From positions 1 through 35,230 of the forward strand of contig PMLC01000102.1 of assembly GCA_003158745.1 (NCBI GenBank): a stretch of DNA of 35,230 nt, in the 5' to 3' direction. The notes under the pieces were generated by a model. The model saw only the letters and a list, made by a program, of their open reading frames with translations, was not told the origin of the DNA and did no database searches. Positions within the stretch are counted from its first letter, which is position 1. Each line of letters opens with the position of its first letter. Shown here piece after piece: positions 10,860 to 25,017 of this stretch. Source of the stretch: Acidobacteriota bacterium. GTDB taxonomy: Bacteria; Acidobacteriota; Thermoanaerobaculia; Thermoanaerobaculales; Thermoanaerobaculaceae. The position numbers and the translations under genes are program-made.

Positions 10860-11828
10860 CTACTTCTTCAGGTCGGCGGGGACGACGCCCGGGAGCCTCA
10901 CGGGACCGTCCACGCGCAGGTCGTAGCTCTTCAGGACGTCCTCCTGCTTGACGCCCGGCGGCACGATGATGTCGACCAGAGGCGGCTCGAGGTTGTCGTC
11001 CTCGCGCCCGCCTCCGAGGAAGTCGGGCCCTCGTCCGGGCTGGACGGGCACGATCATCAGCGCCGGGGCCCTAGGGTCCCGGCCGAGAGCCGCCCCGAGA
11101 TCCACGCTCGACTGGAGATCCGCCACCGAGTCGGCGACCACATACCCCCAGGTGGCCTTGGCGACGCCGCCGAGGAACGACGCCGGCACGAAGAAGCGAA
11201 CGCGGTTTCCGGTCACCCAGACGAGCGTCGGGAAGAAGACGTCCGACGCCACATCCCGGGCGACGGCGGCGGCGATCTGCTTCTCGTCCTCGTCCGTGAA
11301 ATGGGCCTGGCGCTTCTTGAGCTCCAGCTTCCTCTGCTTCTCGAGAATTGACCGCAGCCCGCTGGCGGCGGGGCCGGGACGCGGGGTCAGGCAGATCGCT
11401 TTCTCCCACGCGAAAGCCGGGTCGATCGTCGCACGCCTGCCCGGCAGCATCTCCGTGCTGCCGGAGCCGGGGACGCGGTCGATGTCGATGTAGATGTCGA
11501 CGTTGAAGTTGTAGAACCCGAGCTTGGCCACGGAGTCGAGCGAGGTGCCGAGCTCGTCGATCGGGCGCCGCTCAGGCTTGCGGACCGGTTTCGCGAACGC
11601 GACCTCGAAGATCGTCCCGGCCTTGTCCGCATAGGCCGAGAACGACACGATGTCCAGCTCCCCCAGGTCGATGTCGTCGCGCTGCGGGTAGATGAGAGAA
11701 CCATCGCCGTAGTCGTCCCCTCTCGGGTCGGTCAGAGTGAAGATCGGCTTGTCGGCAGCCGAGGCGGAAACGACGGACGCCGCCACCACGAGGCCGACGA
11801 GCAGCAGGACGCTGGTGCGAGATCGCAT
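10860..11828 (-). CDS. Secreted Glucodextran_C-like domain protein (second copy)
   Basis: A 322-residue exported protein with signal peptide at 1-25 (cut near SASAA). The mature start has DPRGDDYGDGSLIYP (34-48), the signature of the C-terminal module of glucodextranase (Pfam Glucodextran_C type), a beta-rich module associated with alpha-glucan enzymes. No catalytic domain is attached. It resembles the product of 14292-15113 in layout but is divergent and lacks its cysteines, so the two are old paralogues. A Lys/Glu-rich helical segment (about 170-205) interrupts the beta region. The start at 11828 follows GGAGGG. It lies downstream of a terminator and has its own -10 box, so it is a separate unit of the maltodextrin region. 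Glucan binding at the cell surface or in the periplasm is inference. Confidence 0.8.
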   Translation of the reverse strand: MRSRTSVLLLVGLVVAASVVSASAADKPIFTLTDPRGDDYGDGSLIYPQRDDIDLGELDIVSFSAYADKAGTIFEVAFAKPVRKPERRPIDELGTSLDSVAKLGFYNFNVDIYIDIDRVPGSGSTEMLPGRRATIDPAFAWEKAICLTPRPGPAASGLRSILEKQRKLELKKRQAHFTDEDEKQIAAAVARDVASDVFFPTLVWVTGNRVRFFVPASFLGGVAKATWGYVVADSVADLQSSVDLGAALGRDPRAPALMIVPVQPGRGPDFLGGGREDDNLEPPLVDIIVPPGVKQEDVLKSYDLRVDGPVRLPGVVPADLKK

Positions 11829-11895
11829 AGACCCTCCACGGGTACGCCTGGGATCAACGGGACTCCGTTGTCGGCGTGTGCCGGTCATCCAGTGC

Positions 11896-11923
11896 ATTGT
11901 AGAACACCCTCATCTCTCGAGGG
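11896..11923 (-). promoter_or_regulatory. Promoter element and small inverted repeat before the second Glucodextran_C gene
   Basis: On the minus strand TACAAT (11901-11896) is a good -10 box about 67 bases before the ATG. Just upstream lies CCCTC-N7-GAGGG (11907-11923), which could be an operator. No clear -35 box. Confidence 0.35.
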
Positions 11924-12015: not shown

Positions 12016-14256
12016 CTAGAACAAGATCTTCATGTACGCCAGGATGCGCTGCTGGTCGAAGTGTCGCTCGAGCAGGCTGTTCCAACCGCCGTACCGGCCT
12101 GCGAAACCTGGTGAATTGACCGGCACGCCGACGTTCGCGGCGGTGCCCGTATCCGCGTACTGGACGACGTAGCCCGTGCCGAAGTCGGGCTTGAACGTCC
12201 CAAACACGTACTGGTACTCGAAGCCGATGTCGGCGCCACCGACCGGCAGCTTCGCCTTGACGATGACGTAGTTCTTGTCGGAGATCCCCGACGCCATCTC
12301 CATCAGGTTGTAGGCCTGGAATGCCGTGTCGCCGTCCTTGAGATTGGCGTGGTAGTAGTGGTATTCGATCGAAGCGTAGAGGTCGTTGGTGAGCTGGTAT
12401 CCGGCGCCGAGCTGGAGCGTGTAGTAGTCGAGCTTGCGGTCGTCGTCGGACAGGCTGTCCCACGGCTTCCACTGGTAGCCAGACTGCACCGCGTGGGTGA
12501 CCGGATTTGTCACCGTGATCCACGGCGGGTTGGAGTAGTAGGAGGACGTCGAGAGACCTGGGGAGTAGTAGTTCGCAACGTTGTTGCAGGGGCCGGTGTA
12601 CGAGCAGTCGCCCGCCGCGTACGGCAGGAAGCGCGCCTCGTTCATCCGGTTGTCGGTCTCGTTGATGAGCTTGGCCTTCCAAAAGATGTCAACGCCCTTG
12701 CCGACGTTCAGGACATACTTGCCCTTGAACACCGCGATGTCGGTCTTCTTGTCCTGGAACGGCGCGTAGGCAGAGCGGAAGCTGCCGACGCCAGTCTCGA
12801 CATCCATCGCCGGGTAGTCGGTGTCGGTGATCGAGCGGTTGGGGTTGCCCCACGCCTGCCAGTTGGTGTCGTACCCCAGGTGGGTGTACTCGCCCGAGAG
12901 CTGCAGCGAGCCGCTGGTGTAGGTCGGGACCAGGGTGATGCCCTTCCAGCCGATCGCGGTCTCGGCCATGGGTTCGGGGAAGTCCGTGAACTCGTTGTCC
13001 ACGTTGATCGTCGCCACCTGCACCGCGTTGCCGTCCCAGCCGCCATAGCCGATGCGGGTCCTATTGCCGCCGAACACACCATAGGTCGCGTTGGACGGGC
13101 CTGGGAGCGCGAACGCGCTGTCGTGGCCTTCGGTGAGCAGGACGTCGGACTCGCGGCGCGCCGCCATCATCGAGGCGTAGTTGGCGCCGAGGAAGAACGC
13201 CTCGGCGTTGAAGGAGAGCCCGACGCCGAACGGGTCATTGACGTCGACGTTGGCCTTCCACGAACTGCCCTGGTGATTGCCGGTGATCACCGGAGAGTAG
13301 CCGTTCATCCCGAACGACGTCGGCACCTCGCAATTGTTCCCCATGCAGCTGCCAGGAAGCCCCAGGGGGACCGAGGCGACGGTGGAGTGGTAGTAGACGC
13401 CGCGGAAGTCCCAGACCGCGTCGGGGTGGATCCCGAACTTGACGCCTGCCACGGAGTTGCGGAAGCGGGTTTTGAGGTTCAGGCCGTTGTCGAAGTTATT
13501 GTCCGCCGCGTCGATCTCCTGGTCGTTGACGTAGTTGAAGATCCCGCCGACGTCGAACATCGACGATGCCGTGTACTTGAACTGGATCGCGTAGGAAGCA
13601 TCGGCCGCGTTATAGATACCGGTGTTGTAAAGAGGGCCGGCCCACAGGCGCGGCAGGGAGATCCGGGCGAAATCCCAGGTGAACTCCCGGTGTCCCATCG
13701 AGCCCTGGAACAGGAGACCCGACGCGTTGTCGCGGTCGATGTATCGGATGCGGCCGACAACGAAGGGGTCGAACATGCCCCAGTCGCTCGCACCGATCAC
13801 GGCGTCGTCGAGCCACTTGTAGCCCGGGGTGAATGTCACCGCGACGCCGCGCAGCTTGATGTACTGGTTGGACCGCGGGTCGAACTCGCCGCAGTCGCCG
13901 CCGATGCACGAGGTGCCGCTGGCAATCGGGTTGCTGCCGCCCCAACCGCCGTAGTTGGTCCACTCGTTCTGGCTGAACCGGCTGTGGATGCGGGCGTGCA
14001 CCGACACCTTCTTCGACACCTTCGCGTCGACGAAGAGTTCGAGTTCGGAGCCCTGGCCGTTGTCGCCGTAACCCTCGCCGGGGACGGTGGTGAAGTTGTA
14101 CATCGACCCGTCGCCCCGCATGTTGCCCCACAGCCACTTGGTGTAGGTAGCGCCGCTAAGGTTCAGCTTGAACTCGTCGGCGGACGCCGCCCGCGCCATG
14201 AGAATGACGCCGGCAATCACAAGCATGATCACCAAGGTGGTCTTGACTGCACGCAT
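12016..14256 (-). CDS. Large outer-membrane beta-barrel protein, maltodextrin-locus porin candidate
   Basis: A 746-residue protein with signal peptide (1-26, cut near ARAASA). The rest is rich in alternating aromatic and polar strands and ends in YMKILF with the terminal Phe typical of outer-membrane barrels. There is no plug domain or TonB box, so it is not a TonB receptor. Three short cysteine loops, C117-C122, C304-C309 and C551-C557, are probably disulfide-closed surface loops. Its length would allow far more strands than the 16 or 18 of ordinary porins. It follows the Glucodextran_C gene by 35 bases, with ribosome site AAAGGAGG, and is followed by a terminator, so it is the last gene of the maltodextrin cluster. 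Passage of maltodextrins across the outer membrane is inferred from position only; I do not recognise the exact family. Confidence 0.75.
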   Translation of the reverse strand: MRAVKTTLVIMLVIAGVILMARAASADEFKLNLSGATYTKWLWGNMRGDGSMYNFTTVPGEGYGDNGQGSELELFVDAKVSKKVSVHARIHSRFSQNEWTNYGGWGGSNPIASGTSCIGGDCGEFDPRSNQYIKLRGVAVTFTPGYKWLDDAVIGASDWGMFDPFVVGRIRYIDRDNASGLLFQGSMGHREFTWDFARISLPRLWAGPLYNTGIYNAADASYAIQFKYTASSMFDVGGIFNYVNDQEIDAADNNFDNGLNLKTRFRNSVAGVKFGIHPDAVWDFRGVYYHSTVASVPLGLPGSCMGNNCEVPTSFGMNGYSPVITGNHQGSSWKANVDVNDPFGVGLSFNAEAFFLGANYASMMAARRESDVLLTEGHDSAFALPGPSNATYGVFGGNRTRIGYGGWDGNAVQVATINVDNEFTDFPEPMAETAIGWKGITLVPTYTSGSLQLSGEYTHLGYDTNWQAWGNPNRSITDTDYPAMDVETGVGSFRSAYAPFQDKKTDIAVFKGKYVLNVGKGVDIFWKAKLINETDNRMNEARFLPYAAGDCSYTGPCNNVANYYSPGLSTSSYYSNPPWITVTNPVTHAVQSGYQWKPWDSLSDDDRKLDYYTLQLGAGYQLTNDLYASIEYHYYHANLKDGDTAFQAYNLMEMASGISDKNYVIVKAKLPVGGADIGFEYQYVFGTFKPDFGTGYVVQYADTGTAANVGVPVNSPGFAGRYGGWNSLLERHFDQQRILAYMKILF

Positions 14257-14291: not shown

Positions 14292-15113
14292 TTACTTCTT
14301 CAGATAGACCATCGTGAGCGTCGCCATGCTCTTGACGGTGCCGTCCGGGTTGCACTCGTAGGCGAGCATCTTGTGCTGGAGGTCAGCCTCGGACTTGTCC
14401 CCTGTGCCGTTGCCGGCCAGGATGTCCATCACCTGCGGGTTGCAGTGCGAGTCGTTGCCGCCGCCGAAGCGGTGCTGGCCCTCGAACTCGTTCACCCCCC
14501 GGGTCAGCAGAGCATCTTTGTCCGGGAAGCCCTCGTTCGACTGCATGATGACCTGGTAGCCCCACTTGGTGATGTCGCCGGCCGGCAGGTCTTTTGCGTC
14601 GACCCACGCCGAGATGGTCCGGCCCGCGCCGCGGACGTGATCCGGCACGATGATGTCGGGCTGGAGGCCCTTCGCGACCTTGAGCTCGATCTCGGACTTG
14701 ACCCTGGTCGACGGCTGGGGGGAAACGATGATGCACTTGTTCCACCCGGCGTCCTTGGCGAACTGCACGGACAGGCCAGGCAGGCCCTCGGTGTGCCCCG
14801 TCGCCGGATCGGCCTTGACGAAGACCAAGAGCATCTGAACGCAGAACCCGTACTGCATCGACCAGCACTTGTCCTCGAGCTGGGCGTTGACGCCAAAGTC
14901 GAGCTGGTACTTGCCCCCCGACGCCTTCATCTTGAAGAACGTGAGGTCGAACGAGCCCGGCTTGTAGACGTTGTCGGTGGGATAGGTATAGGCTCCCGGA
15001 CCGTTGTCGTCCCCGACCGGGTCCTTGAAGGAGACCTCTTGCGCCATGCCGACGGTTGCCAGGACGGCGGTCGCCAGGAGCGCCAGACCAACGAAACGCC
15101 ACGTCTTGTTCAT
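14292..15113 (-). CDS. Secreted Glucodextran_C-like domain protein
   Basis: A 273-residue exported protein with signal peptide 1-24 (cut near GMAQ). Residues 31-45 read DPVGDDNGPGAYTYP, followed by PGSFDLTFFKM, which is the classic opening of the glucodextranase C-terminal module (Glucodextran_C). The module makes up the entire mature protein; no catalytic domain is attached. It has several cysteines (C83, C91 and others), fitting an oxidising compartment. The start ATG at 15113 follows GGGAGGAA. It lies between malG and the outer-membrane barrel, 109 bases after malG and 35 before the barrel, so it is probably co-transcribed with both. Binding of alpha-glucan chains near the outer-membrane channel is inference. 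Confidence 0.82.
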   Translation of the reverse strand: MNKTWRFVGLALLATAVLATVGMAQEVSFKDPVGDDNGPGAYTYPTDNVYKPGSFDLTFFKMKASGGKYQLDFGVNAQLEDKCWSMQYGFCVQMLLVFVKADPATGHTEGLPGLSVQFAKDAGWNKCIIVSPQPSTRVKSEIELKVAKGLQPDIIVPDHVRGAGRTISAWVDAKDLPAGDITKWGYQVIMQSNEGFPDKDALLTRGVNEFEGQHRFGGGNDSHCNPQVMDILAGNGTGDKSEADLQHKMLAYECNPDGTVKSMATLTMVYLKK

Positions 15114-15222
15114 ACATTTCCTCCCTTTCGATGAGATGACTGCCAAGACTGCCTGTCTGTTTTCCAGATCGAGGCCCTCGGTAACGTGCCACCTCCTTTC
15201 ATGTCCACACACGTCGAAGCCT

Positions 15223-16107
15223 CTAGCCCTTGACCGCGCCGGCCGTCAGGCCGGAGATGAGGTACTTCTGGAGGAAGAGGAACAGCGCCACGATGGGGAT
15301 GGAGGTGACAATGGCCCCCGCCGCGAAGTACCCCCACTGTTGCTCGAAACCGCCGACGAAGAACTTCAACCCGACCGGCGCCGTGTACATGTTGATCTTG
15401 TCCATGAACGTCGCCGCCTGGATGTACTCGTTCCACGCGGTCATGAACGAGAACAGCGCCGTGACGGCCACCGCGGGCTTTGCGAGCGGCAGCACGATCC
15501 GGTAGAAGATCACCGCGGCCGAGGCGCCGTCCATCAGAGCCGACTCCTCGAGCTCCCTCGGGATGGTGTCGAAGTACCCCTTCAGCATCCACACGCAGAA
15601 CGGTATGGCGGTGATCGAGTACACCAGTATCAGCCCCAGGTAGGTCGAACCGAGCCCGAGGACCTGCACGATGATGATGTAGAGCGGGATCATCATCAGG
15701 GTTCCCGGGAACATCTGCGACACGAGGAAGGACATCAACCCGACACGCCTCCCCGGGAACCGGAAGCGCGAGAAGGCATAGGCGGATGTGCAGGCCAGGA
15801 AGACGCCGAGGACAGTCGTGGCGATTGCGATCACCGCGCTGTTGAGGAGCCAGCGAGCGAAAGGCTGCTCCGTGAACACCGACGTGAAGTTGGAGACCGA
15901 GAGGTGAGCGGGCCACGGCATGATCGCCCGGAGCCGGTCGAGAAACGTCGCGTTGGCAGGGATGTCCACGATCATGAGGTTCTGCTGTCCCGAGAAACCG
16001 ATCGTGAAGACCCACAGCAACGGGTACAGCGTGACAACCACGTACACCAGCAAAATAAGGTGGAGGGGGAGGTGTGGGAACTCCTGGCTGCGTCGGCTCG
16101 TGCTCAT
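15223..16107 (-). CDS. malG: Maltose/maltodextrin ABC transporter permease MalG
   Basis: Inner-membrane permease subunit that forms the translocation pore with MalF. The 294 residues show six membrane segments (about 15-37, 87-110, 122-147, 155-176, 211-232 and 260-283). The cytoplasmic EAA loop that docks on MalK is EESALMDGASAAVIFYRIVLP (about 187-207, given here by its ends Glu187 and Pro207). The N-terminal periplasmic stretch (38-85) matches the family. The ATG at 16107 overlaps the malF stop in an ATGA arrangement, which indicates translational coupling. Length is normal for MalG. Confidence 0.95.
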   Translation of the reverse strand: MSTSRRSQEFPHLPLHLILLVYVVVTLYPLLWVFTIGFSGQQNLMIVDIPANATFLDRLRAIMPWPAHLSVSNFTSVFTEQPFARWLLNSAVIAIATTVLGVFLACTSAYAFSRFRFPGRRVGLMSFLVSQMFPGTLMMIPLYIIIVQVLGLGSTYLGLILVYSITAIPFCVWMLKGYFDTIPRELEESALMDGASAAVIFYRIVLPLAKPAVAVTALFSFMTAWNEYIQAATFMDKINMYTAPVGLKFFVGGFEQQWGYFAAGAIVTSIPIVALFLFLQKYLISGLTAGAVKG

Positions 16108-18053
16108 ATCCCCTCCGTCGCCTTCGTGACCTTGTTCTGCCAGACGCCGTACGCCAGCAGGATCGCGAAGATTACCATCGAGTACGCCGCCGCGTAGCCG
16201 TAGCGGTACTGCTCGAACGCGAACTTGTACGCCTGGGTGATCATGATCTCGGTGGAGTGCTCCGGATCACCTCCGGAAACGATGTAGATGATGTTGAACA
16301 TGTTGAACGTCCAGATCACGGACAGAATGACCGCGGGCACCAGGGCGGGCTTGAGAGACGGCAGGGTGATCGAGCGGAACTGCTGCCATCGCGTGGCGCC
16401 ATCTACGCGCGCAGCCTCGTAGAGGTCCGCCGAGATCGACTGCAGCGCGCCGAGGCAGATCACCATCATGAACGGCACCGAGAGCCAGGCGTTGGTCGCG
16501 ATGCACGCGAACAGCGATGTCGCGGGTCTCTCGAACCAGGCGACGGGAGTGCCCCCGAACATTTGGATGATCTGGTTGATCACGCCGAACTGCTGGTGGA
16601 ACATCCCCTTCCAGATCAAAGCGGTGATGTAGTTGGGCATCGCCCACGGCATGACGAAGATGACCCGGTAGATCGGGCGGAACACCAGCCCCTTGGTGTT
16701 GAGGATGAGCGCGAGGAAGAGCCCCATTCCGACGCCGTACGCGACGTTGGTCACGGTCCAGACGATCGTGACGCCGAGGGTCCAGTAGAGGTTCTGGTAG
16801 TTCCACACCAACCCGGCGGCGGTGCTCTTGGCGATGTGAAAGTCGCCGAGAATGTCCACGAAGTTCTTCAAGCCGACCCAGACCTGGGAGAGCGGCGCCT
16901 GCGTCGTGTAAATCGAGGAATCGGTGAACGCGAGCACCACCCCGTAGAGGAACGGGAGGAACACGAGCAGCAGCATGCCGAAGATTGCGGGGAAGGTGTA
17001 GGTGTATGCCTGGTGGTGCTTGCTGATCGTGGCGCCGAGACGAGAGGCTGCGCCGAGACCGACGAAAAGGAGGAGCGCCAGCGCCACTACCGCGATGGCC
17101 CCGATGACGCGCGCGGTCGAGGACGCCCCCGCTGCCAGGCCCTGCTCGAACTTGGCCTGATCGACTTTCCCATCGGCCCCGATCACCCCCAACGGCCGAC
17201 GGAAGAGGTCCGCGTCCCAGCTCGCGGGTTGAAGAGGCTTCAGGCCCCCGCCGGGCGCGACCTCCTGCAGCGCCTTGGCCGCTCTCCCTTCTTCCGCGGT
17301 GACAGCGGAGGCCACGGCGGACTCGGTCGCGCGGCGGTCTCCGCTCACCGCGGTGAAGGCTTGCCTCCCCAACACGACCATCACGGCCACGAGCACGAGG
17401 CACGCGACCAGCGCGAGCATCGTGCGTCGCTCGCCCGTCGCCAGGGCCATGAGCCAGAACACTGCGGCGGCGACGACCACCGCCAGGCCGGAGAAGAGCC
17501 AATCCGGATGTGGAGCAGCCGGGAGCGGCGTGGTCTCAAGGGCCACGAGCCCGACGACCGAACCGTCTTTCTCGAGGGGCGCGGCCAACGAAAGGCCGCC
17601 GCTCGCCGACGAAGCGACCTCGATCTCCGGCTTGCGGGCGGCGCCTTCCTGATGGTTGGTCTCGACCGCCGCACGCAGCCGCTGTGCCTGGTCGTAGATC
17701 GGCTTCTCGTCTTGGGTGAGCCTGCGCGGGGCAGCCTTCTCGCCACGGTCCTCCGGCGCCGTCGAGGCCTCGAGCGAGACCCCGTCGAGCACCATGACGC
17801 GCGCAGCCACCAGCGATGAGTCGCCGCCGGCGAATGCCGCAACCGCCCGGCGCAATCCGTCGCCGGTTCCGCCGGCGCGCTCAGCGACCTCGGCGAGCGC
17901 CGAGACCGTCACGACCGCAACTCGCGACGCGCGGAACCGGTTCTCCTGTGCCCGCGCCCTCGCCAACATCCACTGGGAGAGGGCTGCACCGAGGATCAAC
18001 GCAGCCACCATGCCGGCGGCGAAACGGCGGCGGCGGGAGGGCCCGGGGCTCAT
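16104..18053 (-). CDS. malF: MalF-type permease with N-terminal extracytoplasmic sensor-like extension
   Basis: Residues about 345-649 form a normal MalF permease: membrane segments from 351 on, and the EAA loop EAARVDGATRWQQFRSITLP at 546-565. In front lie some 330 extra residues: membrane segment 12-30, a first extracytoplasmic region (about 35-180, with SLAAPLEKDGSVVGLVALET at 155-174, a Cache/PAS-like strand pattern), segments 185-206 and 210-229, a second exported region (about 232-315, with DLFRRPLGVIGADGKVD) and segment 317-336. E. coli MalF has one big periplasmic loop elsewhere, so this layout is unusual. The ATG at 18053 overlaps the malE stop (ATGA), and the open frame continues upstream only inside malE. 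The extension may sense or bind a ligand, or interact with MalE; this is inference. No frameshift or linker repeat marks the junction. Confidence 0.92.
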   Translation of the reverse strand: MSPGPSRRRRFAAGMVAALILGAALSQWMLARARAQENRFRASRVAVVTVSALAEVAERAGGTGDGLRRAVAAFAGGDSSLVAARVMVLDGVSLEASTAPEDRGEKAAPRRLTQDEKPIYDQAQRLRAAVETNHQEGAARKPEIEVASSASGGLSLAAPLEKDGSVVGLVALETTPLPAAPHPDWLFSGLAVVVAAAVFWLMALATGERRTMLALVACLVLVAVMVVLGRQAFTAVSGDRRATESAVASAVTAEEGRAAKALQEVAPGGGLKPLQPASWDADLFRRPLGVIGADGKVDQAKFEQGLAAGASSTARVIGAIAVVALALLLFVGLGAASRLGATISKHHQAYTYTFPAIFGMLLLVFLPFLYGVVLAFTDSSIYTTQAPLSQVWVGLKNFVDILGDFHIAKSTAAGLVWNYQNLYWTLGVTIVWTVTNVAYGVGMGLFLALILNTKGLVFRPIYRVIFVMPWAMPNYITALIWKGMFHQQFGVINQIIQMFGGTPVAWFERPATSLFACIATNAWLSVPFMMVICLGALQSISADLYEAARVDGATRWQQFRSITLPSLKPALVPAVILSVIWTFNMFNIIYIVSGGDPEHSTEIMITQAYKFAFEQYRYGYAAAYSMVIFAILLAYGVWQNKVTKATEGI

Positions 18054-19282
18054 CGCTGCTTCCGGAGCAGCTTGACCGCCTCCACGACCTCTGCCTGCGC
18101 CTTGTCGAGGGCGGCCTTCGGCGTCGCGGACTTCTGCACAGCGGCGGCCATCGCCGACGTCATCGGGGTCCACATCATGCTCATCTCGGCGAGGTTCGGC
18201 ATCGGCACCGCCACCTCGACCTGCTGCCGGAACTCCTTGAGGATCGGGTCCGCGGCCACCTGCGGATCGAGGTACACCGCCTTGTTCGCCGGCGTCTGGC
18301 GGCCCTCGAGCGCCATGATCTTGGTGGCAGGGGTGTCGGTCAGGTACTTCACGAAGTCGTAGGCCGCATCCTTGTTCTTGGAGCCGGCCGCGATGAACAC
18401 GCCCTCGACCGTCATCCACGGGCTCATCGGCTTGCCGCCAGCCTCGTCCACGGTGGGGAGCGGCGCCAGGCCGTAGTCCACGCCCTGGGCGATCTCCCCC
18501 AGGAACCACGGCCCGTTGAACACAATCGCCGCCTTGCCGTCGTTGAACAGGGAAGTCACGAGAACCGTGGATGGCTCCGCAGGCAGGAACTTGTCCTTCT
18601 CCGCCCATTTCATGACGAGCTCTACTGACTTCACGTTCTCCGGGCTGTTGATGATCGGCTTGCCGGCCGCGTCGAAGACCCCGCCCCCGAAGGCGTTCAT
18701 CAGGATGGCGTGGTAATAGAAGTTCGTATACCAGTACGCCACCCCGAATCGGCCCGTGCTGGCGTCGGTCAGCGACTTCGCCAGCTGCACCAGCTCGCCG
18801 GTGGTCTTGGGCGGCTTCGTCACGAGCTTCTTGTTGTAGACCATCGTGAGGACCTTGTAGTTCAACGGCAGCGCATAGATCGTGCCGTGGTAGGTCATCG
18901 CCTCGACGGTAGTCGCAATAAAGCGATCCTTCGTCGCCTGGTCAACGAAGAAGTCTATCGGCTCGATCGTCTTCCCCGCCTCCACCCAGCCGCCCAACCG
19001 GTCCTGGGCGAAGATGAACATGTCCGGTCCCCTGCCGCGCGGCACGGCGGCGGTGATCTTGTCGGCGAAGGCGTCGTACGGGACCGGCAGCGTGGTCACC
19101 TTGATGCCGGCGCCGGCCCTTGCCGCGTTGTAGGCCGCAACGACCTTCTCGAGAGCGGCCGCTTCACCGCCGCGGTACGCGTGCCAGACCACGAGCTCCA
19201 CAGGCGGTGCGGCCACAGCCGAAACGCCGCAAAGCAAGCCCAGCGCGATGCAGATCACGAGGCGAGAGTTTCTTTGTTTCAT
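18050..19282 (-). CDS. malE: Maltose/maltodextrin-binding protein MalE
   Basis: Periplasmic solute-binding protein of the type 1 sugar family, delivering maltodextrin to MalFG. The 410-residue precursor has a signal peptide (about 1-24, cut near AVAA) and no lipobox. Mature features include ELVVWHAYRGGEAAALEKVV, the hinge-region GPDMFIFAQDRLGGW and YALPLNYKVLTMVYNKKL, all typical of MalE-like proteins. I chose the ATG at 19282 because GAGGAGGAT lies in front of it; a GTG at 19297 would start inside that ribosome site. It is 11 bases after malK and overlaps malF by four bases. Confidence 0.95.
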   Translation of the reverse strand: MKQRNSRLVICIALGLLCGVSAVAAPPVELVVWHAYRGGEAAALEKVVAAYNAARAGAGIKVTTLPVPYDAFADKITAAVPRGRGPDMFIFAQDRLGGWVEAGKTIEPIDFFVDQATKDRFIATTVEAMTYHGTIYALPLNYKVLTMVYNKKLVTKPPKTTGELVQLAKSLTDASTGRFGVAYWYTNFYYHAILMNAFGGGVFDAAGKPIINSPENVKSVELVMKWAEKDKFLPAEPSTVLVTSLFNDGKAAIVFNGPWFLGEIAQGVDYGLAPLPTVDEAGGKPMSPWMTVEGVFIAAGSKNKDAAYDFVKYLTDTPATKIMALEGRQTPANKAVYLDPQVAADPILKEFRQQVEVAVPMPNLAEMSMMWTPMTSAMAAAVQKSATPKAALDKAQAEVVEAVKLLRKQR

Positions 19283-19293
19283 CGCGATCCTCC

Positions 19294-20385
<1,092 letters not shown>

Positions 20386-20420: not shown

Positions 20421-21995
20421 TCAGCGCCGAGCGTCGCGAGCCAGTATCCGCGCGGTCTTTGCCTCCACAGTCGTTTCGATGGTCCCACTTGTCAACGGCA
20501 CGGCACCGCCGTTCCAGACGTCGCTCACGCTTCCGCCGGCCCATTCACCGGGCGCGGCGAAACGCGCGAGGACCGGCGTGCCCCCCCGGTTGATCGCCAC
20601 GACGACCGCGTCGTCGGACTTCGGGTCTTTCTGAAGGAAGACCAGGAGGTCACCGTCGGCCACCAGTTCCTCGTGCGTGCCGCGCGAGAGGGCGGGGTGC
20701 ACCCTCCGGATCCTGATCAGCTTCTGGTAGTCCGACCTGAGGGCTTCGTCGCGAGGAAACCCCTTACCAGGAAGAATGTCGCGCTGGCCCCAGGGCATGT
20801 CGCTGCGGTTTTCCGGCCAGTCGCCGCCGAGCCTGCCGACCTCCTCACCGTAGTAGATCACCGGCACGCCGATCGAGGTGAACTGCAGCACCGCCGCGAG
20901 CCTGAACAGCGCCTTGTCGCCGCCCAGCTGGTACAGCGCCCCGGGGACGTCGTGGGAGGAGAGGTATTGCGCCAGCAGATGCCCCGAGCGCACCCTCTCC
21001 CGGGATTTCAAGTAATGGTCGAACGCGACGGCGCGCCCGCGGCCCTGCACGAAGCCCAGGACGTTTCCCTGGAAGGAGAAGTCGAAGCCGGCGTCGAGCT
21101 CGTCGGCCGCGAAGTACGGGTCGAGGACCTGAGCATCGCCGCCCCACACCTCGCCGAGGAGGAAGAACCCCCGGGGAAGCTCGGCGCGCGTCCTGCGCCG
21201 GTGCTCCTGCCAGAACTCATGGCCCACGTTCTTGACCGTGTCCAGCCGGAAGCCGTCGACGCCCGATTTCTTGGCCCAGGCGAGCTGAGCCTTGAGCAGG
21301 AAGTCCGCGACCTCCGGCATCTCGGTCTTGAAGTCCGGCAGGCCGGCGACGCAGCTCGTCAGGTCGTCGGTGCCGCACGTGCCTGCCGCCTCGGAGCGCA
21401 GCCAGCCCTTCGTCGTGGGGTCCGAGAGGTAGTGGGATCCGTAGCCGGCGTGGTTGTAGACGACGTCTAGGAGCACCTTGATGCCGCGCCGGTGGCACTC
21501 GCTCACCAACGCCACGAGTTCTGCGTCCGAGCCGAAGCGCGGGTCGAGCCTCGTGAAGTCGTCGGCCCAGTACCCGTGGTACGCCCAGTCGGGAAACCCC
21601 GCGCCCGTGACGGGTCCGTCGATGTTCTTGACGACAGGTGTGATCCAGATTGCGGTCGCCCCCAGCCCGGCGATCTCGTCCAGGTGTTCGCGCAGGCCCT
21701 TGAGGTCTCCACCGTGAAACGCGCCCTTGGCCGCGCGGTCGACGTTTGAGTCGTTGGTCAGGTCGCCGTCGGCCCAGCGGTCCACGATGGCAAAGTAGAG
21801 GATCGCCTCCGACCAGTCGGACTGAGGCACGACGCTCAACGGGGCGGGGGCCGGCGCCGCGGCTTTGATGAGCGTGCGACACGAAGTCGCGCACCCCGAG
21901 ATGAACAAACCCACCAGAAGGAACGCTGCGAGAGGACGAGCTAGCAAAGCCCGCCGCACAAAGCCGCCCCGAAGGGTGAAGATTGGCGAGTCCAT
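20421..21995 (-). CDS. Lipoprotein alpha-amylase, GH13, first gene of the maltodextrin operon
   Basis: A 524-residue exported GH13 amylase. A signal peptide ends in the lipobox ISGC with Cys35 as the lipid-bearing residue, so the enzyme is membrane-tethered. Catalytic residues are Asp252 in GFRLDTVKN, Glu282 in LGEVWG and Asp349 in SSHDV; the calcium-site region reads LLDVVYNHAGYGSHY. The N-terminal LYFAIVDRWADGD and GAFHGGDLKGL resemble cyclomaltodextrinase- or CGTase-like amylases. The start at 21995 follows GGAGGAA; an earlier ATG pair at 22046 lacks a ribosome site. It lies 35 bases before malK and is the first gene of the operon. It probably trims alpha-glucan to maltodextrins at the cell surface or in the periplasm; whether the anchor is in the inner or outer membrane is not certain. 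Confidence 0.94.
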   Translation of the reverse strand: MDSPIFTLRGGFVRRALLARPLAAFLLVGLFISGCATSCRTLIKAAAPAPAPLSVVPQSDWSEAILYFAIVDRWADGDLTNDSNVDRAAKGAFHGGDLKGLREHLDEIAGLGATAIWITPVVKNIDGPVTGAGFPDWAYHGYWADDFTRLDPRFGSDAELVALVSECHRRGIKVLLDVVYNHAGYGSHYLSDPTTKGWLRSEAAGTCGTDDLTSCVAGLPDFKTEMPEVADFLLKAQLAWAKKSGVDGFRLDTVKNVGHEFWQEHRRRTRAELPRGFFLLGEVWGGDAQVLDPYFAADELDAGFDFSFQGNVLGFVQGRGRAVAFDHYLKSRERVRSGHLLAQYLSSHDVPGALYQLGGDKALFRLAAVLQFTSIGVPVIYYGEEVGRLGGDWPENRSDMPWGQRDILPGKGFPRDEALRSDYQKLIRIRRVHPALSRGTHEELVADGDLLVFLQKDPKSDDAVVVAINRGGTPVLARFAAPGEWAGGSVSDVWNGGAVPLTSGTIETTVEAKTARILARDARR

Positions 21996-22172
21996 TCGGC
22001 CTTCCTCCAGATAATAGCAGAGATCCCGTCGGCTCATGAAGAGCAAATCCGGCCGCGGGCGGTTCAGGGCCAGGACCTCTGGCGAGCCAGGGGAGCCGTG
22101 TTGGTGCCGGTCCTGCGCTCTCCGCCATGGTGTCCGACAGCGGTGTCTCCGGACGGGCCTGGGGGCGCCAAC

Positions 22173-23928: not shown

Positions 23929-25017
23929 CTGAAGAGGTTCTACAACGACTTCACCGACGGCTTCACAAGGGAGGAGTTGCGGCGGCTGGTCGGGCGCGAC
24001 GCGCGCCGGGCCTACCGCGTGATCACCCGCGAGCAGGACCTCTCAGCAGAGCCGAGAGGAGTCCTGCGACGCTGGCTATTCCGCGCCAGGGTGGTCTTCC
24101 TCGGCCTGTCGCACAAGCTCACGCCGGCGCGCCGGGTCCTGTTCGGGCTGGCGATCCTGGCGGCGCTTATGGGTCTCTTCAAGATCAACGCCGTCGTGGA
24201 AACCGAGAGGTTCTCGGTGGATTTCTCGCCGCTTTTCTTCCTCTTCAGCGTCGTCAGCCTCGCGTTCCTTCTGGCCCTCGAGCTCGTCGACCGGGTGCTG
24301 GTGCGCGACGAGCTCGAGGTCGCGCGGCAGCTCCAGCGCGATCTCCTGCCCTCCGCCGTGCCGGCAATCCTCGGTTACGACGTGGCGCACTCGTACCGGA
24401 CCGCCAATGAAATCGGCGGGGACTACTACGACTTCCTCGACATCCCCGATGGCCGGACGGCGCTCGTGATCGGAGATGCCAGCGGCCACGGGATGGCCGC
24501 CGGCCTCCTGATGGCGATCGCAAACGCGGCGCTCAAGCTCGCCGTCGAGGTCGACCCGACGCCCGAACGGGTGGCAGCGCTCCTCAACCGCGTCCTCTAC
24601 CGGACCGGTGACGCGCGGGCTTTCATGACCCTGTTCTACGGAGTGCTCGACCCGCCTTCAGGCCGGCTCTCATTCGTGTGCGTCGGCCACCCGTTTCCGC
24701 TCCTAAGAAAGGCCAGCGGGGAGGTCGTCGAGCTCGGGACCGGGGGCTTCCCGCTCGGAATTCGTGAGAGCCTCCAGATCGCGCAGCACGAGGTCTCCCT
24801 GGCGCCCGGAGACTTGTTGCTGCTCTACAGCGACGGACTCCCCGAGGCCGCGAACTCGGTCGGCGAGGCGTTCGGCTACGACGCGATGAGGGCCCTGCTT
24901 CGCCAGCCGGGCGACGTCCGCCAGGTCCACGACCGCTTCCTGCGCGCCCTGGACACCCACGTCGCCGGAGAGGCTCTCAGGGACGACGTCACCCTCGTGG
25001 CCGTCGCCAGAATGTAA
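23929..25017 (+). CDS. Membrane PP2C / SpoIIE-type protein phosphatase; start unusual
   Basis: A serine/threonine phosphatase of the PPM (SpoIIE/RsbU) type. A basic N-terminal region with two membrane segments (about 80-98 and 112-132) precedes the catalytic domain, which carries GGDYYDFLDI, GDASGHGMAAGL, LYSDGLPEA and DDVTLVAV, the metal-binding Asp motifs. Partners are probably anti-sigma antagonist systems elsewhere; none are in the window. The first usual start codon in the frame, TTG at 23977, touches its own GGAGGAG sequence and would remove the conserved-looking opening KRFYNDFTDGFTREEL. A good ribosome site GGGAGGAA (23908-23915) lies before ACG (23920) and CTG (23929), with no ATG, GTG or TTG between. 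I place the start at CTG 23929, with ACG 23920 as an alternative. A -10 box TATGAT (23888-23893) is close upstream. Confidence 0.88.
   Translation: MKRFYNDFTDGFTREELRRLVGRDARRAYRVITREQDLSAEPRGVLRRWLFRARVVFLGLSHKLTPARRVLFGLAILAALMGLFKINAVVETERFSVDFSPLFFLFSVVSLAFLLALELVDRVLVRDELEVARQLQRDLLPSAVPAILGYDVAHSYRTANEIGGDYYDFLDIPDGRTALVIGDASGHGMAAGLLMAIANAALKLAVEVDPTPERVAALLNRVLYRTGDARAFMTLFYGVLDPPSGRLSFVCVGHPFPLLRKASGEVVELGTGGFPLGIRESLQIAQHEVSLAPGDLLLLYSDGLPEAANSVGEAFGYDAMRALLRQPGDVRQVHDRFLRALDTHVAGEALRDDVTLVAVARM

Follow-up and report, generated by a model that had tools for sequence, protein, structure and literature searches.

A MalF-type maltodextrin importer permease with a predicted N-terminal Cache-fold domain in Acidobacteriota and Myxococcota

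Results and discussion

Genomic context of the malF-type gene

The window, i.e. the whole stretch of DNA analysed here (35,230 nucleotides of an Acidobacteriota genome), carries a maltodextrin-type importer operon on its minus strand. The genes are listed below in the direction of transcription.

20421..22046, minus strand: alpha-amylase with an N-terminal lipoprotein-like signal, conserved operon neighbour
19294..20385, minus strand: malK/ugpC-type ATPase; the likely start at 20385 corresponds to residue 54 of the listed open reading frame
18050..19297, minus strand: malE-type solute-binding protein (SBP_bac_1)
16104..18053, minus strand: malF-type permease gene with an N-terminal extension, 649 amino acids, ATGA overlaps at both ends
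15223..16107, minus strand: malG-type permease
14292..15212, minus strand: Glucodextran_C protein, conserved operon neighbour
12016..14256, minus strand: candidate porin-like outer-membrane protein, 746 amino acids, conserved neighbour
10860..11897, minus strand: second Glucodextran_C protein, conserved neighbour

The open reading frame of the malF-type gene could extend upstream to position 18608. We placed its start at 18053, since this ATG overlaps the stop codon of the malE-type gene (ATGA) and since starts with the residues MS are kept across congeners of the genus; at the other end, the TGA overlaps the ATG of the malG-type gene. The boundaries 16104-18053 given in the preliminary description are thus correct, and the strand, which was not stated there, is minus. 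The same description took the ATGA overlaps as a sign that the extension is native to the operon, and indeed the overlaps are present and the operon is shared between two phyla. In the loci compared from Acidobacteriota and Myxococcota, the recurrent order is amylase, malK, malE, extended malF, malG, Glucodextran_C, porin-like gene and Glucodextran_C, with parts absent or cut off in some of these loci. No regulator or kinase was recognised among the operon genes common to both phyla in these loci. The porin-like protein gave no significant Pfam match; its place in the operon is conserved across the two phyla, and it is flanked by the two separate Glucodextran_C proteins, which are candidate glucan-binding surface proteins. 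Close to the operon, on the plus strand (23977-25017), lies a gene for a SpoIIE-type phosphatase protein whose N-terminus contains hydrophobic stretches; the compared loci have no match to it near their operons.

The permease core is of the MalF type

Residues 347-649 constitute the MalF-type permease core of a maltodextrin-type ABC importer. The sole Pfam domain in the protein is BPD_transp_1 at residues 440-640 (76.4 bits, cut-off 26.4), and the EAA loop, which contacts the ATPase (EAA---G---------I-LP), is present as EAARVDGATRWQQFRSITLP. The modelled core has the fold of solved MalF (9nxc_H, Z 21.7, rmsd 3.2 over 291 residues, 31% identity), and hhalign aligned it to Escherichia coli MalF with a probability of 99.9% across the core. 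The NCBIfam equivalog model for E. coli-type MalF, NF008232, covers residues 390-645 with 170.3 bits, which is below its cut-off of 392.

The protein resembles E. coli MalF of the MalFGK2-E complex in its core fold, in the EAA region and in its operon partners MalE, MalG and MalK. The two differ in where their exported parts are located: in E. coli MalF, the large P2 domain is inserted between TM3 and TM4 of the core and only the TM1-TM2 hairpin stands in front, whereas here the loop equivalent to P2 is short (residues 376-421, according to hydropathy and the model) and a TM-Cache-TM unit precedes the core. Homology of the extension to the P2 loop was ruled out by hhalign, which detected no similarity to any part of E. 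coli MalF, in agreement with the earlier statement that the large periplasmic domain of E. coli MalF sits elsewhere.

Layout of the N-terminal extension

The extension (residues 1-346) had been described as four hydrophobic segments and two exported regions in front of the core, and the hydropathy profile reproduced this arrangement, with hydrophobic segments at about 12-30, 186-204, 211-229 and 316-334 and loops of ~150 and 86 residues between them. The features below, all on the minus strand, combine this profile with the structure model.

17952..18035, minus strand: TM1 and start of the long N-terminal helix, residues 7-34 of helix 7-59 (hydropathy, model)
17514..17951, minus strand: predicted extracytoplasmic Cache-fold domain, residues 35-180 (pLDDT 93-97, fold matches, hhalign)
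17655..17783, minus strand: most conserved motif of the Cache domain, residues 91-133, G-SLEAST-P-D-G--AAPRRL--EEKP-YD--QRLR----N
17436..17501, minus strand: TM2, residues 185-206 (hydropathy, model)
17361..17426, minus strand: TM3, residues 210-231 (hydropathy, model)
17160..17360, minus strand: second exported region, residues 232-298, a helix and a small W-D-D-P element, missing in some relatives
17058..17159, minus strand: TM4, residues 299-332, structurally aligned with TM2 of E. coli MalF
16107..17015, minus strand: MalF core with the EAA motif, residues 347-649

In the structural alignment with 9bcr_H, residues 319-645 of the model fall on residues 37-510 of the chain, so that the core matches E. 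coli MalF from TM2 onward. Since TM4 falls on TM2 of the E. coli protein, TM3 and TM4 of the model most likely correspond to the TM1-TM2 hairpin with an inserted spacer of ~67-86 residues, and TM1, the Cache domain and TM2 would form an additional unit preceding an 8-TM MalF, giving a 10-TM protein. Residues 1-11 contain four K/R and no D/E, which fits an N-terminus on the cytoplasmic side. Hydropathy, charges and the model together predict an extracytoplasmic Cache domain between two TM helices, which in the cell would lie on the periplasmic side, where MalE docks. The protein has no cytoplasmic output domain, and its cytoplasmic links comprise a few to about 20 residues.

The first exported region is predicted to adopt a Cache fold

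The extension yielded no match in sequence searches against Pfam, NCBIfam and the PDB. AlphaFold2 predicted it with a pLDDT near 90 when 16 relatives were supplied; a run on 42 rows gave 85 for the full-length protein and values of 93-97 for most of the extension, i.e. a confident fold and not a disordered region. According to DSSP, the model consists of helices 7-59 and 65-76, strands 81-88 and 93-97, helix 114-136 and strands 145-148, 154-162 and 165-174, followed by TM2. The stretch LEKDGSVVGLVALET, whose strand pattern had originally suggested a Cache/PAS-like domain, sits on the predicted strands 154-162 and 165-174. The model shows hallmarks of Cache domains, namely a PAS-like mixed sheet with an alpha helix between β2 and β3, as well as the long N-terminal helix (residues 7-59), the element that separates Cache from PAS according to the available text of the founding Cache survey (PMC4822843).

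In the PDB fold search, residues 32-182 matched the Cache domain of WalK/YycG (5is1) with Z 11.0 and rmsd 2.7 over 128 residues, followed by TlpQ (Z 10.8), PctC (10.4) and CitA (9.9), and also Mlp24; residues 1-207, with both TM helices included, matched the WalK model 9a5d with Z 12.0. As the guide level of the fold search is about Z 8 for common arrangements and higher for helical folds, we regard these matches as good rather than overwhelming, and therefore sought evidence at the sequence level. Local hhalign against 20 acidobacterial dCache_1 domains gave a score of 28.8 at a low probability of 24%. The corresponding controls scored 12.0 ± 1.8 when columns were shuffled (maximum 15.9 of 100), 15.7 when the profile was reversed and 10.7-13.2 when the remaining parts of the protein were compared instead. 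Pfam Cache models matched no family member in hmmscan even at an E-value of 10, and one member matched GAF_2 at 5.7e-4. Seven weak matches were obtained in genomes of two phyla, and all six that were examined are GAF- or Cache-type sensor proteins, comprising sensor kinases with extracytoplasmic domains as well as GAF proteins, of which two have a GGDEF or phosphatase output; in most cases the alignment lies at the last two strands. When the whole protein was used for the structure search, the best 50 rows contained permease cores alone because the core fills the list, which is no argument against the Cache match. From this we conclude that residues 32-182, as modelled, very probably have a Cache/PAS-type fold, in line with the proposal made for the first exported region (about 35-180), and that their closest structural counterparts are extracytoplasmic Cache sensors.

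For the second exported region (232-315), profile comparison revealed no Cache signal. Moreover, three relatives (L104, L105, L106) represent a natural deletion, as they keep the Cache domain and are devoid of most of this region (about 232-298). The missing signal, the weaker constraint described below and the natural absence in some relatives speak against counting region 2 as a further sensor. Acidic low-complexity insertions occur near residues 60-65 of the extension in three other family members (L060, L062, L066).

The extension is conserved within one MalF subfamily

The whole protein, including the extension, shares 83, 75 and 72% identity with its counterparts in congeners, and the extension is found in other Acidobacteriota and in Myxococcota with ~41-58% identity. 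This conservation in congeners and in both phyla rules out that the extension arose by chance fusion or through faulty assembly, and together with the ATGA overlaps it also excludes a false start codon or a frameshift as the origin of the extension. A profile built from 16 extensions detected it in 23 of the 149 genomes of the window's class, in 8 clear cases in a 396-genome sample of the phylum Acidobacteriota and in 195 Myxococcota genomes, where 52 of the 54 matches were clear and two weak. Searches were repeated with the core alone: in the window's class, all 19 genomes with a close core were also on the extension list, as were all 51 Myxococcota genomes with a core identity of 63% or more. 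Every close core found is thus accompanied by the extension, which therefore belongs to one MalF subfamily. Beyond the two phyla, the scan of all species was one pass with two strict peptide patterns and found relatives only in Acidobacteriota and in Myxococcaceae MAGs; the plasmid collection contained no match. A quick tree groups the extended cores into a single, modestly supported clade (0.74) and places Myxococcota sequences among those of Acidobacteriota.

Pairwise dN/dS values were 0.08-0.13 for the core, 0.21-0.23 for the Cache domain, 0.29-0.44 for region 2 and 0.43-0.57 for TM2-TM3. Present on every close core found and in an operon common to both phyla, the extension is a long-established component of a single MalF subfamily, maintained by selection. 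Most near-invariant residues of the Cache domain fall within 91-133, namely D102, G104, P109, R110, E116, K117, D121, R127 and N133, and nearly all of them within this segment together with the last strands. The conserved charged motif 91-133 sits between β2 and β3, the segment that forms the side of the ligand pocket in known Cache domains. These data also bear on the idea that the extension is a structural element for the stability or assembly of a 10-TM protein, neither sensing nor docking. The weak constraint on TM2-TM3 and region 2 (0.29-0.57) and the very long TM helices, which could brace the core, are compatible with such a role; however, the Cache domain itself is well constrained and carries a near-invariant polar motif, and we consider this explanation improbable.

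Comparison with related architectures and possible function

With single Cache sensors such as WalK/YycG (5is1, 4ywz) and CitA (1p0z) and with the dCache_1 receptors PctC, TlpQ and Mlp24, the extension shares the succession of TM helix, long N-terminal helix, PAS-like sheet and TM helix (Z 9.9-11.0). In contrast to these receptors with kinase or chemotaxis output, the protein ends in an ABC permease core and has no signal-transduction output domain. A Cache domain on a transport protein has a precedent in the α2δ subunits of voltage-gated calcium channels, which bind amino acids or gabapentin (PMC9901441); these are, however, separate animal accessory subunits with a double Cache, whereas here a single Cache is fused to the permease of a bacterial importer.

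A further comparison is provided by sister MalF proteins of Myxococcota (L154-L168), which have a related core (47-57% identity); the MalE-MalF fusions among them likewise carry an N-terminal exported module, but one that is a substrate-binding protein and not a Cache domain. In 11 of the 16 sisters examined (L154, L155, L158-L162, L165-L168), a whole MalE-type protein is fused to the N-terminus in one open reading frame of ~720-760 amino acids, and a MalE-MalF fusion also exists in Bdellovibrio. Another sister, L156, carries a divergent Cache domain (hhalign 95.6%). Given the MalE-fused sisters and L156, the N-terminus of this MalF lineage appears to be a site where exported modules are exchanged. 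Two further MalF proteins, L157 and L164, have ~385 residues before the core with the same TM-domain-TM-TM-domain-TM plan, and this region has no detectable similarity to the extension profile.

The fusions are relevant to the main competing explanation, according to which the Cache-fold module no longer senses a ligand but keeps MalE, or amylase or outer-membrane partners, close to the permease in a manner similar to P2 of E. coli. No Cache domain was seen in the fused examples, so that the terminus may serve MalE delivery, and the P2-equivalent loop is short compared to that of E. coli MalF. WalK, which gave the best fold match, is not known to bind a small molecule through its Cache domain, and the conserved charge in 91-133 could serve protein-protein contact instead of ligand binding. 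On the other hand, many MalF-type permeases, e.g. SugA, are known to function with neither a long loop nor an additional domain, so that a P2 substitute is not needed, and the strongest conservation concerns polar and charged residues of the pocket-side segment. We regard tethering as rather unlikely, albeit a serious competitor.

We favour the interpretation that the Cache-bearing MalF binds a periplasmic ligand and tunes MalFGK2 import in cis, with a probability of roughly one half. From its position on the MalE-docking side, the Cache domain would bind a periplasmic small molecule in the conserved charged pocket, the resulting change would be passed via TM1/TM2 to the MalF helices, and import would thereby be tuned to a second signal. 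That the Cache domain is kept where region 2 is lost was counted in favour of this sensing function. Cis control is the simplest reading, because the protein lacks an output domain and no regulator was recognised among the shared operon genes of the compared loci. A more specific version, which is a tentative proposal, makes the importer its own receptor, with a Cache domain that gates MalFGK2-type import upon binding a signal distinct from the transported sugar. Alternatively, the Cache domain or the whole permease could convey the presence of the sugar, or a different signal, to a distinct cytoplasmic regulator while transport is left unchanged. Transporters acting as co-sensors are generally known, and Cache domains normally feed signalling proteins, as stated in the available text of the Cache survey (PMC4822843). 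Yet neither a regulator nor a kinase was recognised in the operon common to both phyla, and the cytoplasmic links are short, which makes signalling of this kind quite improbable, even slightly more so than a purely structural role. While the architecture and the Cache-like fold of the preliminary description hold, the roles it considered, namely maltodextrin sensing, MalE docking and a link between transport and regulation, remain suggestions.

Implications

As far as could be searched, an ordinary MalF core is combined here with a sensor-type domain that was previously undescribed there. The available text of the founding survey reports signal-transduction outputs for all Cache families except SMP_2, and its models were derived exclusively from proteins that have these outputs (PMC4822843), so a Cache domain on a transporter would have escaped it by design. 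The available text of a 2023 review of transporter control names CBS, PAS and UspA as fused regulatory domains, and Cache is not among them (PMC10710835). In the open-access literature, we found neither Cache domains in ABC permeases or an extended MalF form nor a description of cis control of an importer by a fused Cache domain.

A Cache domain on the best-studied importer type provides a simple system for asking whether ABC import can be gated by a sensor outside the cytoplasm. The Cache-bearing MalF is present in large-genome Myxococcota, probably including cultivable myxobacteria, which would open this form to deletion tests. If the Cache reading is true, it suggests that the importer may itself read a periplasmic signal.
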